Positions 3,126 to 55,681 of a stretch of 64,000 nt of DNA are shown in pieces. Within the stretch, counting starts at the first letter, position 1. Every line of letters starts with the position of its first letter. The notes under the pieces were generated by a model. That model saw only the letters and a program-made list of their open reading frames with translations. It searched no databases and was not told the DNA's origin. Source of the stretch: a virus; IMG/VR virus record IMGVR_UViG_3300043427_003242, positions 1 to 64,000 of that record; one strand, written 5' to 3'. A program made the translations under genes and the position numbers.

Positions 3126-3936
3126 GATATCAGTCTTTGGTGGAACAGGATTTATTGGTGGGACTTTCTGTAATCTTTATCCAAAAGATGTGGTGTTAGT
3201 TCCAAAGGAAAGTAGAAACTTTGAAACTCAACAAGTTCTTTATTTCATTAGCACAACAACAAATCAAAGTGTTTTTAAAGACTTACATATTGATATTGAT
3301 ACTAACTTGAGTTTGTTTGTTGATGTCCTTAAAAATTGTAAGAGTAAAGATATTGTCTTTAATTTTATCAGTTCTGGATTTGTTTATGGTAATGATGTCA
3401 TAGATGCCAAAGAAACGGACTGTTGCAATCCTACTGGGTTTTATTCCATCACCAAACGATGTGCTGAACAACTGTTAATATCTTTTTGTGAAACTTTTGG
3501 AGTTAAGTATAGGATTCTAAGGATTGGGAATGTTTATGGATTAGATAAAACAGTTTCTTTAGGTAAGAATGTTCTTGGATACATGATTAATCTTCTCAAA
3601 CAAAATAAAGATATTCAACTTTATGATGGTGGTAATTTTTTAAAAGATTATATGTATGTTGAGGATATTTGTAGAGCAATTAAGGTAGTTTTGGATAAAG
3701 GTAATGTAAATGAGATTTACAACATTGCCTCTGGCACTTCTTTCACTTTTCGTGAACTTATTGAAACTGCAAAAGAATTAACTGGAAGTCAAAGTAAAAT
3801 AATTGATGTTGCATTCCCAGACAATCAAAAATTCATTCAAGTTAAAAACATGACTTTGAATAATAAAAAATTAAAAGATTTTAATTTTTCATATGAGATG
3901 ACTATCGAAAAGGGATTGCAAATATTATCTACTTGA
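3118..3936 (+). CDS. NAD-dependent epimerase/reductase (SDR)
   Basis: About 272 residues from the ATG that overlaps the rmlC stop by 8 bases. FGGTGFIGGTF is the dinucleotide-binding loop and GFYSITKRCAEQ carries the catalytic YxxxK, with SSGFVYG supplying the serine region. DYMYVEDICRAI and IYNIASG are typical extended-SDR C-terminal blocks. Directly after rmlC it is a candidate for the final 4-keto reduction, but it looks more like a general epimerase than canonical RmlD. Substrate unassigned. Confidence 0.7.
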   Translation: MNKISVFGGTGFIGGTFCNLYPKDVVLVPKESRNFETQQVLYFISTTTNQSVFKDLHIDIDTNLSLFVDVLKNCKSKDIVFNFISSGFVYGNDVIDAKETDCCNPTGFYSITKRCAEQLLISFCETFGVKYRILRIGNVYGLDKTVSLGKNVLGYMINLLKQNKDIQLYDGGNFLKDYMYVEDICRAIKVVLDKGNVNEIYNIASGTSFTFRELIETAKELTGSQSKIIDVAFPDNQKFIQVKNMTLNNKKLKDFNFSYEMTIEKGLQILST

Positions 3937-6456: not shown

Positions 6457-7278
6457 ATGATAGGATTTAATTATTTGGGAAAAATGGGTCAACTTGGAAA
6501 TCAAATGTTCCAATATGCCTCTCTTCGCGGAATTGCTAAAAATAGAGGATATAATTTTTGTATTCCTTATCATAATGAAGTTGTTATTGATAGTTTTGAG
6601 AATAAACTTAGAATTGAACTTTTTGATACATTTTTAATGTCAAATGTTACTCAATTAAACATTCAAGTAATAGACCAAGATAGACCAACTATTGTTGAAG
6701 ATAATTTTAATTTTGACAAAAAACTTTTTGATGATTGTCCAGATTGGGTTAATCTTCAAGGATATTTTCAAACAGAAAAATACTTCAAGCATATTGAAGA
6801 TGAAATCCGCCAAGATTTTACATTCAAAAACGAAATCTCATTTCTTTGTAAACATAAAATGAGTGAAGTTGATAGACCAATTGCACTTCACGTTCGTCGT
6901 GGAGATTTTTTAATTAATTCTGCAAATCACACAAATCTTGGTCTTGATTATTATGATGCCGCTCTACAAAAGTTTGATAATGATAGAATTGTGATTATCT
7001 TTTCGGATGATCCTGAATGGTGTAAAGAACAATCTTTATTTGAATCTGACAGGTTTCTTGTATCGGAAGGAAACGATAGTTATACTGATCTTTGTTTAAT
7101 GAATTTGTGTACTGACTTTATTATTGCAAACTCCACTTTTTCTTGGTGGGGTGCTTGGTTATCTAAAAGTATTAATAAAACGGTTTGTGCTCCTGACCCC
7201 CAAAAATGGTTTGGGAAAAATAATGCACATTTAGATACGTCTGATTTAATTCCAAAAGAATGGATAATAATTAAATGA
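6457..7278 (+). CDS. GT11 family alpha-1,2-fucosyltransferase-like
   Basis: 273 residues, typical for bacterial GT11 (about 280-300). Three family blocks are present: GQLGNQMFQYASLRG near the N-terminus, ALHVRRGDF (HxRRGD, GDP-sugar binding) near residue 150, and IANSTFSWWGAWLS near residue 235. GT11 enzymes move L-fucose from GDP-fucose to the O-2 of galactose. No GDP-fucose pathway genes are in the window, whereas a GDP-mannose 3,5-epimerase-like gene is, so the donor could be host GDP-fucose or the related GDP-L-galactose (inference). Its stop overlaps the next ATG (ATGA). Confidence 0.88.
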   Translation: MIGFNYLGKMGQLGNQMFQYASLRGIAKNRGYNFCIPYHNEVVIDSFENKLRIELFDTFLMSNVTQLNIQVIDQDRPTIVEDNFNFDKKLFDDCPDWVNLQGYFQTEKYFKHIEDEIRQDFTFKNEISFLCKHKMSEVDRPIALHVRRGDFLINSANHTNLGLDYYDAALQKFDNDRIVIIFSDDPEWCKEQSLFESDRFLVSEGNDSYTDLCLMNLCTDFIIANSTFSWWGAWLSKSINKTVCAPDPQKWFGKNNAHLDTSDLIPKEWIIIK

Positions 7279-8060
7279 TATATCTTAGTGGCTCTAGTGG
7301 ATTAATTGGTAGTAGATTTTTGGAACTTTGTGATAAAAAAGTTACGACAATTTCTTATCGAGATGAAGTTTCTGATATTTTTGATTGTCATGAAGAATCT
7401 TGTTTAATTCATCTTGCCTGGTCTTCTACTACTAGAAATAATTATGATGAATTTCAAAAAGTTATAAAAAATGATGTGTCAAATAGTAAAACTCTATTTG
7501 ATTACTACGTAAATAAAAATCCAAATGGAAAAATAATTTTTGTTTCATCTGCTGGAGATTTGCATCTTGGGAAGGAAAGAACAGTATTTGAAGAATTTGA
7601 GCCCTCTCCACATTCTTTATATGGTGAATGTAAGTTGCATGTTGAAAATATGTTAAAAGAACTTAGTTGCAATACAGTTGTTCTTAGGACATCGAATATT
7701 TGGGGAGCAAAGGTAAAAAAAGATAGAGTTAATGGATTAGTTGATAAACTTTTAAACTCTGTGAATACCAATCAAATTGTGGAAATTTTTGCAAATCTCA
7801 AAACAAGAATAGATCTAGTTCATATTGATGATTTTGTTAATCTTTTATTCAAGGTAGTATCTACTGATTTAAATAAGCAACATGAATTATTTTTGGTTGG
7901 AAGGCAAAGTATAACTATTCTTGATATAATAGATATTGTGTCAAAACGTGGCACATTAAACCTTAAACTGAATCAAAAGGCAGAAAAAACATATTTGCAT
8001 ATTGAAAATTCTAAAGTTAGAAAGTATTTTGATTGGCAACCACAGCATATTTTAAAATGA
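7275..8060 (+). CDS. NAD-dependent epimerase/reductase (SDR)
   Basis: 261 residues. SGSSGLIGSRF is the Rossmann loop, LIHLAWSS and VSSAGDL the middle strands, and SLYGECKLHVE provides YxxxK. Shorter than a full nucleotide-sugar epimerase and closer to the RmlD/reductase-type SDRs, so it could complete the rhamnose pathway or act on another 4-keto sugar. It is coupled by ATGA overlaps at both ends, between the GT11 and GT6 genes. Confidence 0.65.
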   Translation: MIYLSGSSGLIGSRFLELCDKKVTTISYRDEVSDIFDCHEESCLIHLAWSSTTRNNYDEFQKVIKNDVSNSKTLFDYYVNKNPNGKIIFVSSAGDLHLGKERTVFEEFEPSPHSLYGECKLHVENMLKELSCNTVVLRTSNIWGAKVKKDRVNGLVDKLLNSVNTNQIVEIFANLKTRIDLVHIDDFVNLLFKVVSTDLNKQHELFLVGRQSITILDIIDIVSKRGTLNLKLNQKAEKTYLHIENSKVRKYFDWQPQHILK

Positions 8061-8788
8061 AAATTGCAGTAACTTTTTGGGGCACACAAAAATATATTGA
8101 GTTTCTTCCTAAATGGTATGAAAGACTTGAAACTTATTTTGTACCTGATATTGAGAAAACTTATTTTGTTTTTACTGATGGTGATTTGGAAGGATCACCT
8201 GACAATATAGTCAAAATAGAAATACCTCATTATGGATTTCCGACTACCTATCATAAAACTTTTGAAGAAATGTTAAAGTTAAAGAATAAAGTAGTTGGTT
8301 ATGACTGGTTAATTTCTGTTGATGCAGATCTTTATGCTTGGTGTGATATAAATTACTCTGAATTTTTTGATGATACAAAAAAATATTTTGGAGTTCATCA
8401 TCCTTGTCACTTTCTTGAATTCCCTCCCCACAATCAATATCCAGGATCTTTCGACGTAAATCCACTGTCCAACTCTTGTATTGATGAAGATATTATGAAT
8501 ATGTCTGTGTACTATCAAGGATGTTTGTGGGGAGGAAAAGTTCCTGCAATATTTGATATGATGGAGCAAATAGATAAATGGACTAAGGATGATCTTGACA
8601 AAAGTATTCAAGCGAGATATTATGAAGAGAGTTATATGAATCGTTGGTTTTTATCTCATAAAGATGAAGTACATACTTTGTCCCCTTCTTTTGCATATCC
8701 TCAGTTATTTGAGCAGTATTGTAATTTTGAGAAAAAAATGGTTCATCTTGCTAAGGACAATAAATCACTAGACAATAATCAATGGTAA
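8057..8788 (+). CDS. GT6 family glycosyltransferase (ABO-type fold)
   Basis: 243 residues from the ATG that overlaps the previous stop; an upstream in-frame TTG is ignored. It fits GT6, the family of the human ABO transferases: YFVFTD strand, SVDADLYA (residues 87-93, a retained DxD metal site), HHPCHFLEFPP, YYQGCLWGGKVPAIFDMM (donor/acceptor block) and YEESYMNRWFL, the counterpart of the family HDESHLN motif containing the catalytic acid. GT6 enzymes add alpha-1,3-linked Gal or GalNAc, usually to a fucosylated galactose. GT6 members have been reported from bacteria and a cyanophage. The GT11 gene two positions upstream could make the acceptor. Confidence 0.8.
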   Translation: MKIAVTFWGTQKYIEFLPKWYERLETYFVPDIEKTYFVFTDGDLEGSPDNIVKIEIPHYGFPTTYHKTFEEMLKLKNKVVGYDWLISVDADLYAWCDINYSEFFDDTKKYFGVHHPCHFLEFPPHNQYPGSFDVNPLSNSCIDEDIMNMSVYYQGCLWGGKVPAIFDMMEQIDKWTKDDLDKSIQARYYEESYMNRWFLSHKDEVHTLSPSFAYPQLFEQYCNFEKKMVHLAKDNKSLDNNQW

Positions 8789-8789
8789 T

Positions 8790-9554
8790 ATGAGAGTTAA
8801 TATTTATTATCACATTTGGTCTCCTGCGGATACTGACTTGTGGAAAATTTTAATTGATGAGCAAATAAAAAGACTTTATAGAAGTGGGTTAACTGATATT
8901 GCAACCATAAAATGTGCTATCAATGGACCACAAGCTTCTAGGATTAAACAATTTGTTTCTTTGTATGACTGGATTGATATCATTGATTGTAGGGACAATG
9001 ATGATGAGTATGAAGGATTTACACTTAAGCATCTTTATGAAGATTGTGTAAATGATCGGGCCCATAAGGTAATGTACTTTCACACTAAAGGTATTAGTCA
9101 TATGTGTGGTGTGCGAGATCATTACTCTGATCGTAAAGTGAGGGCAATAAATAGTTGGAGACACCTCATGGAGTGGGGTTGTATTGACAAATGGAAAGAA
9201 AATCTAGATAAACTAGATCACTATCAAGTATCTGGAGTTAATTATTGCCTAGATCCATGGCCACATATGAGTGGCAATTTTTGGTGGGCAAGAGCAGATT
9301 ATATTTCAACCCTTCAACATCCAACTAAACAGGCATTTCAAAGAGAATCGCAAGACTTTGGGCCTATTGAAAGAATGAATTTTGAAAAATGGATAGGTAT
9401 GAAAGACCCATCTGTTTTTAGTTTTTATAATCCACCTTTTAGTTACGACTTCAAAGATATGATACCTGATGTACAACCTACTCCACCAGGAGAACCTCAC
9501 TGGTTTTGGTTATATCGCGACGACATTCATCCACATTATTTGAAAGATTCATGA
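8790..9554 (+). CDS. putative glycosyltransferase (uncharacterised)
   Basis: 254 residues, one base after the previous stop. VMYFHTKGISHM and PHMSGNFWWARADYI resemble blocks in poorly described viral and bacterial glycan-cassette proteins (YFHTKG and SGNFWWA types). No clear DxD; DNDDEYEG near residue 70 is acidic. The next gene starts in its last codons (ATGA). Glycosyltransferase assignment rests on these motifs and position, so it is tentative. Confidence 0.5.
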   Translation: MRVNIYYHIWSPADTDLWKILIDEQIKRLYRSGLTDIATIKCAINGPQASRIKQFVSLYDWIDIIDCRDNDDEYEGFTLKHLYEDCVNDRAHKVMYFHTKGISHMCGVRDHYSDRKVRAINSWRHLMEWGCIDKWKENLDKLDHYQVSGVNYCLDPWPHMSGNFWWARADYISTLQHPTKQAFQRESQDFGPIERMNFEKWIGMKDPSVFSFYNPPFSYDFKDMIPDVQPTPPGEPHWFWLYRDDIHPHYLKDS

Positions 9555-10279
9555 GTACAAAATTTGGTTGTTTTCATACCGTCTATGAAAATAAGAGAGC
9601 TACAGAATTTATTCTTCAAGAATTTAGAAAATTTCATCCGAATGAACCATATACTATTTGTTGTGATGGTGGAGTAGATTATTCTGATCTTGCTGAAAAA
9701 TATAATTGTAATTACGTTCATTCTTATATGAGAATTGGACGTAGAAATTCTGGACACCCATCAGGAGTTTATGGATTTACTAAAGATGAGAGTCTTCATT
9801 GGATTCATATGTTTAGAGAAGCAGCAAGATATGTGAAATCTCAGGGAGGAAGTCATATGATTATGATGGAAGATGATGTTTTAACTCAAAAAGAGGTTAA
9901 GATTGATCCTACTTGGGAATGTGCAGGATTTGATGTTCCAGGAAATAAAATAGAACCAAGTCTACTTCAGTATATTAAAGCAAAATACAATGCCAATCCT
10001 AACGTGGACTGGTATGGTGCTGGTGGTGGTAGTATATACAATATCAATACATTTCTTGATAATTATCATACAATTTATGATTTTATTGATTATGATTTTG
10101 ATTATATTTTAAAATTTCTTGATTATAGATTTGGTTGGTTAGACTTGTATATGCAAATTGTATATTTTATTTTGGGTAAAGAATATTCAATTAATACCAA
10201 TTTAACAGAAGTTTGGAAAACTCCAAATTTTCGTAATACTGACTTTGCACTTGTTCATGCGTATAAGGAGCTTTACTGA
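9551..10279 (+). CDS. putative GT-A type glycosyltransferase
   Basis: About 242 residues from the ATG that overlaps the upstream stop. MIMMEDDVLT near residue 100 is the acidic metal-binding motif of GT-A glycosyltransferases, preceded by a donor-binding-like half (YTICCDGGVDYSDLAEKY). WYGAGGGSIYNINTFLDNY could be the acceptor region. The C-terminal third is rich in Tyr, Asp and Phe. The stop overlaps the next start (TGATG), with AAGGAG upstream of that start as a ribosome site. Confidence 0.6.
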   Translation: MSTKFGCFHTVYENKRATEFILQEFRKFHPNEPYTICCDGGVDYSDLAEKYNCNYVHSYMRIGRRNSGHPSGVYGFTKDESLHWIHMFREAARYVKSQGGSHMIMMEDDVLTQKEVKIDPTWECAGFDVPGNKIEPSLLQYIKAKYNANPNVDWYGAGGGSIYNINTFLDNYHTIYDFIDYDFDYILKFLDYRFGWLDLYMQIVYFILGKEYSINTNLTEVWKTPNFRNTDFALVHAYKELY

Positions 10280-11256
10280 TGAAATTAGCGTTGATTGGCC
10301 CTGGGATTATGCCTATTCCTCCTGATGGTTGGGGTGCTGTCGAAAGTTTAATTTGGGACTATGCACTAGAACTTGATGAGTTGGGTCATGAAGGTACTAT
10401 TATTAATACTCCTAATTGGGATGAAATTATTAAATATTTGAATGAAGATAATTATGAATTCGCTCATCTTCATTATGATGTATTCCATCCAATTATGGAT
10501 ATGATATCCGAAGAAACTAATATTTCAAAATTAGCTATTAGTAGTCATTATCCATATATTGATCAACCACATATGCACCGCCGCGATGGTTATGATCGCA
10601 CTTTTGATTGGATTATTAATAATAAAAAATATTATATCTTCTGCATCTCCAAAAAAGATTTTAATACATTTAAAAACGCAGGTGCTGATGAAAGTAGATT
10701 ACTTCTTTCTGAAAATGGTGCAAATCATAAGAGATTTACTTATCGAACCGATGCAGTAAAACCAGATCGTTCTCTGTATTTGGGTCAAATTTATCATAGA
10801 AAAAAACAATGGTTGTATCAATCAATTGATTCGATTGATTATGTCGGGCAAAATACTGGTGCCACCGCATTTGACCCAAGTATTAATTATCTTGGAGAAT
10901 GGAGTGACGAATATAAGAGAGAACATTTTACTGATTATGGTAATCTCGTTCTTCTTTCTGATGGAGAAAATGGAACGCCTTTGGTTGTGAAAGAAGCAAT
11001 GGTAAATGGACTAGGTGTGGTAATTTCAAAATATGCTGCACATGATCTCCCAGAAGGGTTACCATTTGTAACAGTAATTCCTGATGATAAACTTGAAGAT
11101 ATTTCTTATGTTGAGGAAAAGATTAAAGAAAATCGTGAGATATCTGTGAGTATGAGAGATGAAATTCGTGAATTTGCAATTGATAATTTTTCTTGGGAAA
11201 GTCTTGTAAAATTATATGCTGAAAATATTGAAAAATTAGAAGCAAATGCGAATTAG
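10279..11256 (+). CDS. GT4-like glycosyltransferase (first of a tandem pair)
   Basis: 325 residues. IPPDGWGAVESLIWDYALEL is the donor-loop region typical of GT-B/GT4 enzymes; LSENGANHKRF marks the interdomain region (usual form NGxD) and LLSDGENGTPLVVKEAMVNGLGVVIS corresponds to the family ExxxxE-type nucleotide-sugar motif. About 325 residues is short for GT4 (350-400). The next gene is clearly a paralogue (IPPIGWGAVESLIWD, NPNGVNCKLF, LLSDGEAHPLVCLEAFSAG), so this is a local duplication. The 3' end overlaps that gene by 11 bases. Confidence 0.75.
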   Translation: MKLALIGPGIMPIPPDGWGAVESLIWDYALELDELGHEGTIINTPNWDEIIKYLNEDNYEFAHLHYDVFHPIMDMISEETNISKLAISSHYPYIDQPHMHRRDGYDRTFDWIINNKKYYIFCISKKDFNTFKNAGADESRLLLSENGANHKRFTYRTDAVKPDRSLYLGQIYHRKKQWLYQSIDSIDYVGQNTGATAFDPSINYLGEWSDEYKREHFTDYGNLVLLSDGENGTPLVVKEAMVNGLGVVISKYAAHDLPEGLPFVTVIPDDKLEDISYVEEKIKENREISVSMRDEIREFAIDNFSWESLVKLYAENIEKLEANAN

Positions 11257-12190
11257 TATTATTGGACCAGCACTTCCTATTCCTCCAATTGGGTGGGGTG
11301 CTGTTGAAAGTTTAATTTGGGATATGAAAATGACCTTAGAAGAAATGGGTCATGAAGTTCAAATTATTAATATTGGTGATCCCTATCAAATTATCAATAT
11401 GATTAACCAATTTCGTCCTGATTTTGTTCATATTAATTATGATGATTGGGTTCCAATCTATGAATTTATTCAGTATCCTTGTGCAGTCACTACGCACTTT
11501 GCTTATATTGAACGACCCGAATTAATGGGTGGTTATAAGGAAAGAGTATTTGATCATTTCTCTAGAATTAAACCAAATGTCTTTGGGTTGTCTGTAGGAA
11601 TTAATAAAATTTATAAAGACCTTGCTGATATTCCAGATGAAAGACTCTATTTAAATCCAAATGGAGTTAACTGTAAATTATTTGAAATAACCGATAAACC
11701 AACTTATCCTGATAGATCAATCTATCTTGCAAAAATAGATTATAGAAAACGTCAATTTCTTTTTCAGGATATTGAATCTGTTTGGTATGCTGGAAATATT
11801 GCTGACGCTAGATTTGATGTTAAAAAAAATTATCTTGGCGAATGGTCTAAAGATGATGTTCATAAAAAATTAACTCAATATGCAAATCTTATCTTACTTT
11901 CTGATGGTGAGGCACATCCATTAGTTTGTCTTGAAGCATTTTCTGCGGGCCTTGGTGTTGTTGTAAGTGAATGGGCAACTGCTAATTTGGATTTAAATAA
12001 TAAATTTATTAGTGTTATACCTGAAGAAAAAATTAATGATATAAAATTTGTAGAAAATGTTATATCTGAAAATAGAAAATATTCCATAAACAATCGTCAA
12101 GAAATTATTAACTATGCAAAAGAGTTTGAATGGTGTAGAATGTTAGAAAATTACTATCTGCCAAATATTCAGCAAGTTATCGATGGATAA
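11246..12190 (+). CDS. GT4-like glycosyltransferase (second of a tandem pair)
   Basis: 314 residues, colinear with the upstream GT4 gene over its whole length. IPPIGWGAVESLIWD, LYLNPNGVNCKLF and ILLSDGEAHPLVCLEAFSAGLGVVVSEWA are the shared blocks; SDGEAHPLVCLEA is nearer the canonical GT4 E-x7-E motif than its partner's version, so this copy may be the more conventional enzyme. Divergence between the copies suggests different acceptors rather than redundancy. Starts inside the previous gene and overlaps the next by 8 bases. Confidence 0.75.
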   Translation: MRISIIGPALPIPPIGWGAVESLIWDMKMTLEEMGHEVQIINIGDPYQIINMINQFRPDFVHINYDDWVPIYEFIQYPCAVTTHFAYIERPELMGGYKERVFDHFSRIKPNVFGLSVGINKIYKDLADIPDERLYLNPNGVNCKLFEITDKPTYPDRSIYLAKIDYRKRQFLFQDIESVWYAGNIADARFDVKKNYLGEWSKDDVHKKLTQYANLILLSDGEAHPLVCLEAFSAGLGVVVSEWATANLDLNNKFISVIPEEKINDIKFVENVISENRKYSINNRQEIINYAKEFEWCRMLENYYLPNIQQVIDG

Positions 12191-21663: not shown

Positions 21664-21828
21664 ATATACATACACGGGGTTAAGGAATGTAACAATTTCT
21701 TACCTACGGAATCTTCTCCAACCGGGATCACGAGAAGTAAAGCATCCCTCATACCCACGATGGAGGGTGTCGTGGGAATACTTGTAACCATTCAGTCCCC
21801 CTGAATCATACTTACCCTTTTAAAACAA
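21664..21828 (+). promoter_or_regulatory. structured psbA 5' leader
   Basis: A 7-bp hairpin CCCACGA/TCGTGGG (21754-21776) has a loop containing GGAGGGTG; the same GGAGGG can alternatively pair with CCCTC at 21745-21749. A second hairpin ATTCAG/CTGAAT (21790-21806) lies nearer the start codon. Mutually exclusive pairings next to a ribosome-site-like loop suggest translational control. No small open frame is convincing. Confidence 0.45.
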
Positions 21829-23345
21829 ATGACTGCTACAATTGCTCAACAACGTTCCACAAATACCTGGAACCAATTCTGTGAGTGGGTTACTTCCACT
21901 AACAATCGTCTGTATGTTGGTTGGTTCGGAGTCCTGATGATTCCTTGCCTGCTTGCTGCTACGACTTGCTTCATTATCGCTTTCGTTGGTGCTCCCCCAG
22001 TGGACATCGACGGCATTCGTGAACCAGTTGCTGGTTCTCTAATGTACGGAAACAACATCATCTCTGGTGCCGTTGTTCCTTCTTCTAATGCTATCGGACT
22101 TCACTTCTATCCTATCTGGGAAGCTGCTTCTCTTGATGAATGGCTTTATAACGGTGGACCTTTCCAACTCGTTGTATTTCACTTCCTCATCGGCATCTAT
22201 GCTTATATGGGACGTGAATGGGAACTCTCTTACCGTCTAGGTATGCGTCCTTGGATCTGTGTTGCTTACAGCGCACCTGTTGCTGCTGCTTCTGCCGTAT
22301 TCCTGGTTTATCCTTTCGGTCAAGGTTCTTTCTCTGATGCGATGCCTCTTGGTATCTCTGGTACGTTTAACTATATGCTTGTCTTCCAAGCAGAACACAA
22401 TATCCTGATGCACCCCTTCCACATGCTTGGAGTTGCTGGTGTGTTCGGTGGTTCACTCTTCAGTGCTATGCACGGTTCACTGGTGACTTCTTCACTGGTT
22501 CGTGAAACTACTGAGAATGAGTCACAGAACTACGGATATAAGTTCGGTCAAGAAGAAGAGACCTACAACATCGTTGCTGCTCACGGGTATTTTGGACGCC
22601 TTATTTTTCAATATGCTTCCTTTAATAACTCCCGTTCACTGCACTTCTTCCTGGCTGCCTGGCCTGTTGTAGGCATCTGGTTCACTGCTCTTGGTGTTTC
22701 TACGATGGCATTTAACCTCAATCGTCGGGGTCCCGTCCTAGCAATTTGACGGTAAACATTGGGTGAATTGCTGGAAGCCCTCCATATTGGGTAATCAGCA
22801 GCCAAGTCCAAGACGCTTCTTGGAAAGGTTCAGAGACTAGGTGGTTTCTCAAGCGTGAGATGTAATACACCAATAGCGCCCAACATCCTAAATGGATGAA
22901 GATATAGTCCACTCCATAAGAATGGTAAACTTATGGGTTCAGTGCAACGGTTTCAACTTCAACCAGTCTATCGTTGATAGTCAAGGTAAAGTTATTAACA
23001 CTTGGGCAGATGTCCTAAATCGTGCAGGACTTGGAATGGAAGTCATGCATGAACGCAACGCTCGATTTGTGGGCGCTCTTATCTGAAAAGGTAAGATAAA
23101 CTTCGGATGAATTGCTGGAAACCCTAACGGGCAATCAGCAGCCAAGCCAATCACGAACTTGATTGGAAGGTTCAGAGACTAGGTGGTTTCTCAAGCGTGA
23201 GATGTAATACACCAATAGCGTCCGACACCTAACCTCATAAAGAGTATGGTGAAGATATAGTCCAAACTGTAAGCACAACTTCCCACTTGACCTTGCAGCA
23301 GCAGAAGCAACACCAGTTGCTCTCACTGCTCCTTCAATCGGTTGA
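21829..23345 (+). CDS. psbA: photosystem II D1 protein, interrupted by two introns
   Basis: Three exons: 21829-22718, 22945-23062 and 23274-23345. Joined length is 1080 bases, giving 359 residues in true D1 numbering. After splicing the tail reads [19 protein letters not shown] and HERNAHNFPLDL, restoring H332, E333, H337, D342 and A344 of the manganese site and a short C-terminal extension. Exon 1 carries all five membrane helices with Tyr161, His190, His215 and His272. Without splicing, translation stops at 22749 after eight wrong residues. D1 is the fast-turnover core of photosystem II; phage copies keep photosynthesis running during infection. Splice sites follow group I rules (exon ends in U, intron ends in G). 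Exon base composition is GC-richer than flanking DNA. Confidence 0.95.
22719..22944 (+). ncRNA. psbA group I intron 1 (226 bases)
   Basis: Splits codon 297 (Leu). The exon end ACCU can pair with GGGU at 22728-22731 with a U-G wobble at the splice site, as in a P1 helix; the intron ends in G. Core-like segments GAATTGCTGGAA (P), GTTCAGAGACTA (R) and AAGATATAGTCC (S) occur in order. No open frame for an endonuclease inside. A 52-base stretch (22827-22878) is identical to intron 2. Confidence 0.85.
23063..23273 (+). ncRNA. psbA group I intron 2 (211 bases)
   Basis: Lies exactly between codons 336 (Ala) and 337 (His), next to manganese ligands. The exon end CGCU pairs with GGCG at 23072-23075 with a U-G wobble. 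The same core segments as intron 1 occur, with 52 identical bases (23169-23220). Its size matches the single ~212-base psbA intron known from cyanophage S-PM2. No internal endonuclease. Confidence 0.88.
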
Positions 23346-23432: not shown

Positions 23433-23957
23433 ATGAGAACCACGAAGATTTGTAGAAGTTGCAACAAAGAACTTTCTGTCTCTGATTTTAGAGAAGGTCG
23501 TAGAAGGTGTATAAGATGTGAAGAAAAAACTTATGCAGAAAACTGGGCGAGTAAAACTCATATCGTCTGCAACAAGTGTGGTGTAGAAAAACTTATTTCA
23601 GAATATTATAAAGGTCATAAGAGGTGTAAAGAGTGTTATAGTAAAGACTATAAAGATAAGAGACCTTCTTATGACGATAAGAAAGACTATATGTTGAAAT
23701 ATACTTATGGTGAAGATTTTGGATTAGAGCAATATAAAAACCTTCTACAAGAACAAAATGAAGTTTGTGTTATTTGTTTTAATCCAAATACAAATGGTAG
23801 AAAGGATAGTAATAACCTTTATGTGGACCACGACCATAAGACAGGAAAGGTTCGTGGATTGCTTTGTAGCAACTGCAACAGAATGCTAGGATTGGTTGGA
23901 GACAACTTAGATACATTAAGCAACGCAGTTAGATACCTACAAAAGCATAAGCACTAA
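23433..23957 (+). CDS. free-standing endonuclease (endonuclease VII-like)
   Basis: 174 residues. Three CxxC pairs (KICRSCNKE, RRRCIRCEE, IVCNKCGVE) build zinc-finger-like knuckles in the N-terminal half; the catalytic half has VCVICFNPN, LYVDHDHKTGKVRGLLCSNCNRMLG, the His-Me finger block of endonuclease VII (DHDHxTGxVRGLLCxxCN). In S-PM2 a similar gene between psbA and psbD encodes the homing enzyme F-CphI, which cuts intron-free psbA. This one lies in the same place and may drive spread of one or both introns. Confidence 0.82.
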   Translation: MRTTKICRSCNKELSVSDFREGRRRCIRCEEKTYAENWASKTHIVCNKCGVEKLISEYYKGHKRCKECYSKDYKDKRPSYDDKKDYMLKYTYGEDFGLEQYKNLLQEQNEVCVICFNPNTNGRKDSNNLYVDHDHKTGKVRGLLCSNCNRMLGLVGDNLDTLSNAVRYLQKHKH

Positions 23958-25181: not shown

Positions 25182-25757
25182 ATGAATATGGGATTAAATA
25201 AAAAATCAATTCCTTGCGGAGGATTAGTTGGAAAAACTTTTGGGAGACTGACTGTTTTAAGAGAATATAGTAATAAAAAATATATTCTATGCGAGTGCTC
25301 TTGTTCTTGCGGTGGAAATACAACTTCAACAAGAAGAGAGGGATTGTTAAATGGTAGAACTCAATCTTGTGGATGTATTCGTAAAGAAATAGTAAACGCC
25401 AAAAATCGTGAAAGATTTGACCCCAACGCAGTATCAAAATCAGTTGAATATAGAATTTTGACCAGAGCAAAAAGTAGAGCAAAGCAAAATAATATTCCAT
25501 TCAATCTGGAACTTATTGATATAGTCATTCCCGAAACTTGCCCTTTACTTGGTATTCCTATTGAGATACAACCTAAAAAAGGTTATCATCCAAATAGTCC
25601 TTCATTAGATAAAATCATTCCAGAAAAAGGATACATAAAAGGTAATGTGTGGGTCATAAGCAATAGAGCCAACACACTCAAAAACGACGCTTCCCTACAA
25701 GAACTCCAAACACTCGTAGAAAATCTCAAATGCTCACATTACTCGCAGCATTCATAG
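25182..25757 (+). CDS. free-standing HNH homing endonuclease
   Basis: 191 residues. The N-terminal half has CGG, CECSCSCGGNT and QSCGCIRKE, a zinc-ribbon/AP2-like DNA-binding region; the C-terminal half has ETCPLLGIPIE and SLDKIIPEKGYIKGNVWVISNRANTLKNDA, the phage HNH block (D, GYxxGNVxVxSxRAN). Probably a mobile gene inserted after psbD; its 3' end overlaps a tiny downstream gene by 28 bases. AT-rich, unlike psbD. Confidence 0.75.
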   Translation: MNMGLNKKSIPCGGLVGKTFGRLTVLREYSNKKYILCECSCSCGGNTTSTRREGLLNGRTQSCGCIRKEIVNAKNRERFDPNAVSKSVEYRILTRAKSRAKQNNIPFNLELIDIVIPETCPLLGIPIEIQPKKGYHPNSPSLDKIIPEKGYIKGNVWVISNRANTLKNDASLQELQTLVENLKCSHYSQHS

Positions 25758-55212: not shown

Positions 55213-55285
55213 GCCCGTGTAGTCCAGCGGCAGAGACAGGGCGCTTAAAACGCCTCCAGGGTCGGTTCGAATCCGACCACGGGTA
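55213..55285 (+). tRNA. tRNA with Leu anticodon UAA, short variable loop
   Basis: 73 bases, all four arms present: acceptor GCCCGTG/CACGGGT (G-U first), anticodon stem GGGCG/CGCCT with loop CTTAAAA (anticodon TAA), T arm GTCGG/CCGAC, discriminator A. The variable region is only 5 bases (CCAGG), unlike bacterial tRNA-Leu, which has a long arm. The 3' CCA is not encoded. It reads UUA, a frequent codon in AT-rich phage genes. Confidence 0.85.
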
Positions 55286-55610: not shown

Positions 55611-55681
55611 GCCTCTAAAGCATTGTGGTGATGCACCGCTCTTGTAAAGCGGAGACGACAGTTCAATTCTGTCTAGAGGCT
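55611..55681 (+). tRNA. tRNA-Thr (UGU)
   Basis: Acceptor GCCTCTA/TAGAGGC, D stem GCAT/ATGC, anticodon stem CCGCT/AGCGG with loop CTTGTAA (anticodon TGT), T arm GACAG/CTGTC. Reads ACA, common in this window. 3' CCA not encoded. Confidence 0.93.

Follow-up and report, generated by a model that had tools for sequence, protein, structure and literature searches.

The psbA gene in the DNA examined here (the window: 64,000 nucleotides, positions 1 to 64,000 of IMG/VR virus record IMGVR_UViG_3300043427_003242) is interrupted by two introns that share an identical block of 52 bases, which raises the questions of whether one intron is a copy of the other and of what brings two introns without reading frames together in one phage gene. 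The explanation favored here, which taken as a whole is probably correct, is that they are self-splicing introns of separate lineages, that intron 1 is spread by a free-standing endonuclease VII (Endo VII), that intron 2 hitchhikes with it, and that the shared segment moved between introns by recombination.

The two introns of the window psbA gene

The three psbA exons lie on the + strand at 21,829–22,718 (codons 1 to 297, base 2), 22,945–23,062, and 23,274–23,345 (including the stop codon), and their joined translation is a D1 protein of 359 residues, as the initial annotation had stated. The psbA leader contains a PhotoRC-II RNA (21,700–21,789, + strand; Rfam RF01717, 49.5 bits against a cut-off of 39). 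Intron 1 (22,719–22,944, + strand; 226 nt) follows base 2 of codon 297, at nucleotide 890 of the coding sequence, and intron 2 (23,063–23,273, + strand; 211 nt) lies between A336 and H337, at nucleotide 1008; exon joining thus places both where they had first been put, inside codon 297 and between codons 336 and 337. Neither contains an open reading frame. Both match the Rfam group I intron model (Intron_gpI, RF00028) over its full length (positions 1–253) with 84.8 and 77.6 bits, respectively (cut-off 50 bits), and they are the only group I introns in the 85,232-base virus record. Elsewhere the window has a wcaG RNA match (29–127; 98 bits) and two tRNA genes (55,213–55,285 and 55,611–55,681).

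Both splice junctions have the U|...G arrangement of group I introns, in agreement with the initial annotation. The P1 and P3 helices can be written as ACCU/GGGU and UUGGG/CCCAA in intron 1, and as CGCU/GGCG and UCGGA/UCCGA in intron 2. Among the 97 introns compared, P3 shows compensatory changes and is paired in all 485 cells, P7 is likewise paired in all 485 and is invariant (its GACTA strand shows no variation), and P8 is paired in 386 of 388; slid controls for P3 and P7 are paired in 6–58%. The internal guide scores a mean of 12.0 against the 5′ exon of its own site and 6.5 against the 5′ exons of other sites. By covariance model, P3/P7 core, terminal residues, and guide pairing, the window introns are group I introns. 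Two further hairpins, P7.1 and P7.2 (paired in 86% and 73% of cells, respectively, with double changes that indicate covariation), occupy a 35-nt segment between the P7 5′ strand and the P3 3′ strand. Such P7.1/P7.2 hairpins are the defining mark of subgroup IA, and the window introns have them. ORF-less introns of this type would be expected to excise themselves from psbA RNA, also in vivo, and so restore D1.

Introns in psbA across phages

The initial annotation suggested a survey of cyanophage psbA genes for intron number. IMG/VR pattern scans anchored on exon-intron combinations, together with isolates, gave 256 psbA loci with from none to nine introns per gene; since most of these loci were gathered by way of their introns, the counts are not prevalences. 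The 253 mapped introns occupy 18 sites in the coding sequence (nucleotides 179, 230, 276, 317, 408, 499, 548, 556, 570, 645, 649, 750, 890, 989, 992, 1002, 1008, and 1011). A corrected pattern scan for site 317 gave zero matches, although the mapped set includes introns there. An endonuclease-sized insert is possible, and often found, in the mapped introns at sites 179–649 and never in those at 750–1011. At least 80 loci have an intact site 890, and among the matches listed 74 of 80 have no intron at other sites.

All 253 mapped introns have U|G junctions. Because the mapping favors U|G where placements tie, a fair test must be limited to the 66 unique junctions for which protein identity allows a single placement; all 66 are U|G against a background of 5.8%. 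Four complex loci (L012, L101, L109, and L111) had junctions read by eye; the second junction of L111, at site 1008, ends in A and was left out of the 253. After splicing, 156 of 158 full-length psbA genes contain no in-frame stop, and the stops in the remaining two (L119 and L215) may reflect frameshifts. The richest locus, L012 (positions 6653–11,257 of IMGVR_UViG_3300042987_001812), carries nine group I introns in psbA; two of its exons measure just 14 nt (sites 556–570) and 19 nt (992–1011), and its spliced product is again a 359-residue D1; Rfam finds nine matches in this record, eight above the cut-off and one just below it. To our knowledge, nine group I introns with such micro-exons would be extreme for any phage gene. 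A four-intron psbA gene in another locus (L042) has a glutamine riboswitch match nearby (3656–3746, − strand).

Origin of the shared block

The block at 22,827–22,878 in intron 1 is identical in all 52 positions to that at 23,169–23,220 in intron 2 (both on the + strand), as first reported. It comprises the P7 5′ strand and P7.1/P7.2, and its variable part is 22,840–22,874 and 23,182–23,216 in the two copies, respectively. Beyond this segment the two introns are only 55.7% identical. Apart from near-copies of the window, intron 1 is 87–94% identical to most other site-890 introns (the rest range down to about 70%), and many of the phages with its close relatives lack a site-1008 intron. For intron 2, identity is 90–97% with the closest relatives at site 1008 and 84% with a site-408 intron (locus L015). 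When the segment is set aside, the nearest neighbor lies at the same site for 92 of 93 introns, and for the segment alone this falls to 62 of 93. Sequence comparison thus shows the two window introns to belong to separate, site-specific lineages.

The segment itself behaves as a mosaic element. In 91 cross-site pairs it is at least 95% identical while the remainder is less than 70% identical, and in 100 of 344 same-site pairs whose remainder is at least 85% identical it is less than 80% identical. At least four distinct segment types occur across the introns; all four are present at site 890, and one of them, type A, is found at 890, 1008, and 408. The simplest reading of these alignments is exchange between introns at different sites, in which the P7/P7.1/P7.2 block would pass by recombination through its conserved flanks.

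The initial annotation had instead concluded that one intron probably arose recently from the other. Such a copy, moved within psbA, for example by reverse splicing, would account for the 52-nt identity and for the presence of both introns in the same gene, but the divergence outside the segment and the far closer own-site relatives of each intron, many of them in phages that lack the other, make it very improbable, and a recent intragenic duplication was rejected. It is also rather doubtful, if less so, that the block merely reflects strong conservation of the core, or common ancestry maintained by constraint, with no exchange: the invariant P7 strand and the wide sharing of the flanking GGTTCAGAGACTA fit that view, but the stretch that intervenes is highly variable, and the distribution of its types, which do not track the intron phylogeny, does not. 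Finally, the introns might be dead or an assembly artifact and the psbA gene of this phage a pseudogene. Against this, D1 is intact after joining, the catalytic helices are conserved with compensatory changes, and splicing has been demonstrated for the S-PM2 relative (PMC5931967). An error of frame or assembly, which the initial annotation had named among the findings that would undo its reading, is unlikely as well, since the window intron pair recurs exactly or nearly so in virus records from other metagenomes: L008, L016 (a 219-kb record), and L013/L014 (at 94–97%); on this ground assembly error was rejected, and the whole proposal of dead or artifactual introns is scarcely credible.

The downstream Endo VII gene and known systems

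About 90 nt 3′ of psbA lies a gene for a free-standing Endo VII (23,433–23,957, + strand; 174 aa; PF02945, 7.7e-22, 77.4 bits), a candidate homing endonuclease. Its counterpart F-CphI cuts intronless psbA and is blocked by the intron, an arrangement named collaborative homing (PMC6083498). The window protein is 40% identical to F-CphI and keeps all of the residues essential in the latter (C84, D101, H102, R110, and N118; aligned motif DHDH...R...CSNCN). It falls in a clade (12 distinct proteins, support 100/99) that is separate from the F-CphI clade; in isolates no member of this type was found, the best matches listed being 37–43% identical and no record reaching 60%. A second endonuclease-like ORF (phrog_3322) lies past psbD at 25,182–25,757, so psbD too has endonuclease genes on its flanks.

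A site-890 intron adjoins all 12 distinct members of the window clade, and in the F-CphI clade all 32 rows have an intron at 1002, except for one row with 1008 and one with 1011 in its place. By locus, the site-890 intron accompanies 17 of 17 window-clade genes and 4 of 59 other Endo VII genes (Fisher 1.6e-13; 2e-9 on distinct proteins only), in loci that were mostly gathered by intron patterns and are not a random sample. One of the loci, L017, is almost a copy of the window; its psbA was mapped incompletely, and it was counted with both introns on the ground that it has two copies of the shared block. Controlling for kinship leaves about five independent pairs; about four favor the association and none opposes it, a number too small to reach significance (p 0.06 or more). 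In the same test the established F-CphI/1002 pair scores about six for and none against. Four Endo VII proteins of other clades (in L011, L012, L040, and L045) also lie next to a site-890 intron, so the pairing is not obligatory in that direction. In the direction that collaborative homing predicts, a free-standing endonuclease always found with an ORF-less intron, the association has no exception among the 17 loci.

The most likely interpretation of this gene order and co-occurrence is that the window carries a second intron/free-standing endonuclease pair of the collaborative-homing type, directed at codon 297 and enclosing intron 2 between intron 1 and the endonuclease gene. On this view, the Endo VII would cleave an intronless psbA close to codon 297, and repair on the donor template would transfer as one tract everything from intron 1 (with exon 2, intron 2, and exon 3) to the endonuclease gene; intron 1 would protect the donor's own psbA from the enzyme, and intron 2 would hitchhike with the pair. 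The site of intron 2 is only 6 nt from that of the S-PM2 intron, a position at which it may also shield psbA against F-CphI-type enzymes of rival phages. The alternative that the Endo VII is an F-CphI ortholog serving intron 2 was rejected, given its separate clade and the constancy of site 890. A different objection is that the link between Endo VII and intron 1 marks a single phage lineage and that the true target lies elsewhere (site 1008, psbD, or the psbA-psbD spacer). The small number of independent pairs and the second endonuclease ORF past psbD lend this some weight, and it is unlikely without being negligible; against it, 890 is the sole occupied 3′-end site in several of the 17 loci, 1002 or 1008 is also filled in others so that only 890 is constant, and the F-CphI clade shows a like pattern with the 1002 region, where the pair is known biochemically.

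How an ORF-less intron and an endonuclease encoded outside it come to share a target has so far been debated largely on the strength of a handful of individual examples. A second Endo VII clade tied to a second site in one gene makes the self-protection model directly testable, as do the natural replacements of 1002 by 1008 or 1011 at the first site. The broader picture of psbA as an intron archipelago, with at least 18 insertion sites across cyanophages, up to nine introns per gene, exons of 14–19 nt, site-specialized Endo VII clades at the 3′ end, and swapping of P7.1/P7.2, is one toward which the survey leans by a modest degree. In the literature searched, which included few subscription journals, no description of multi-site, multi-intron phage psbA genes was found beyond the works cited here.

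Among known systems, the closest is that of phages S-PM2 and S-RSM88, in which psbA has one intron, after codon 334 (nucleotide 1002), and the F-CphI gene lies downstream. The window resembles them in having an ORF-less group I psbA intron with an Endo VII gene just downstream, and differs in its sites (890 and 1008) and in its distinct endonuclease clade. The S-PM2 intron is spliced during infection in a light-dependent manner (PMC5931967), which ties psbA splicing in that phage to light. Chlamydomonas chloroplast psbA likewise has multiple introns, with light-linked splicing (references listed in PMC5931967); these are four large introns in a chloroplast gene, and the likeness is drawn from their description. 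The statement in the initial annotation that only a single intron, in S-PM2 psbA, is documented is out of date. Synechococcus phage S-CBWM1 (MG450654) has two annotated group I introns in a single psbA gene, at nucleotides 649 (with an intron-encoded endonuclease) and 1011 and, unlike the window, with no free-standing endonuclease annotated beside psbA; the annotated ends of its first intron (locus L005, 1823–2608) appear to be about 2 nt off the U|G junction. Synechococcus phage S-SRM01 (MW015081), like the window, has several related group I psbA introns and a downstream Endo VII, but its introns number three, at nucleotides 276, 750, and 1002; they are unannotated, and the record and its paper give two partial D1 genes where there is one psbA gene (locus L003, 2971–5376). 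Two introns in a phage psbA gene are therefore not new, and the window sites, 890 and 1008, differ from those of both S-CBWM1 and S-SRM01.
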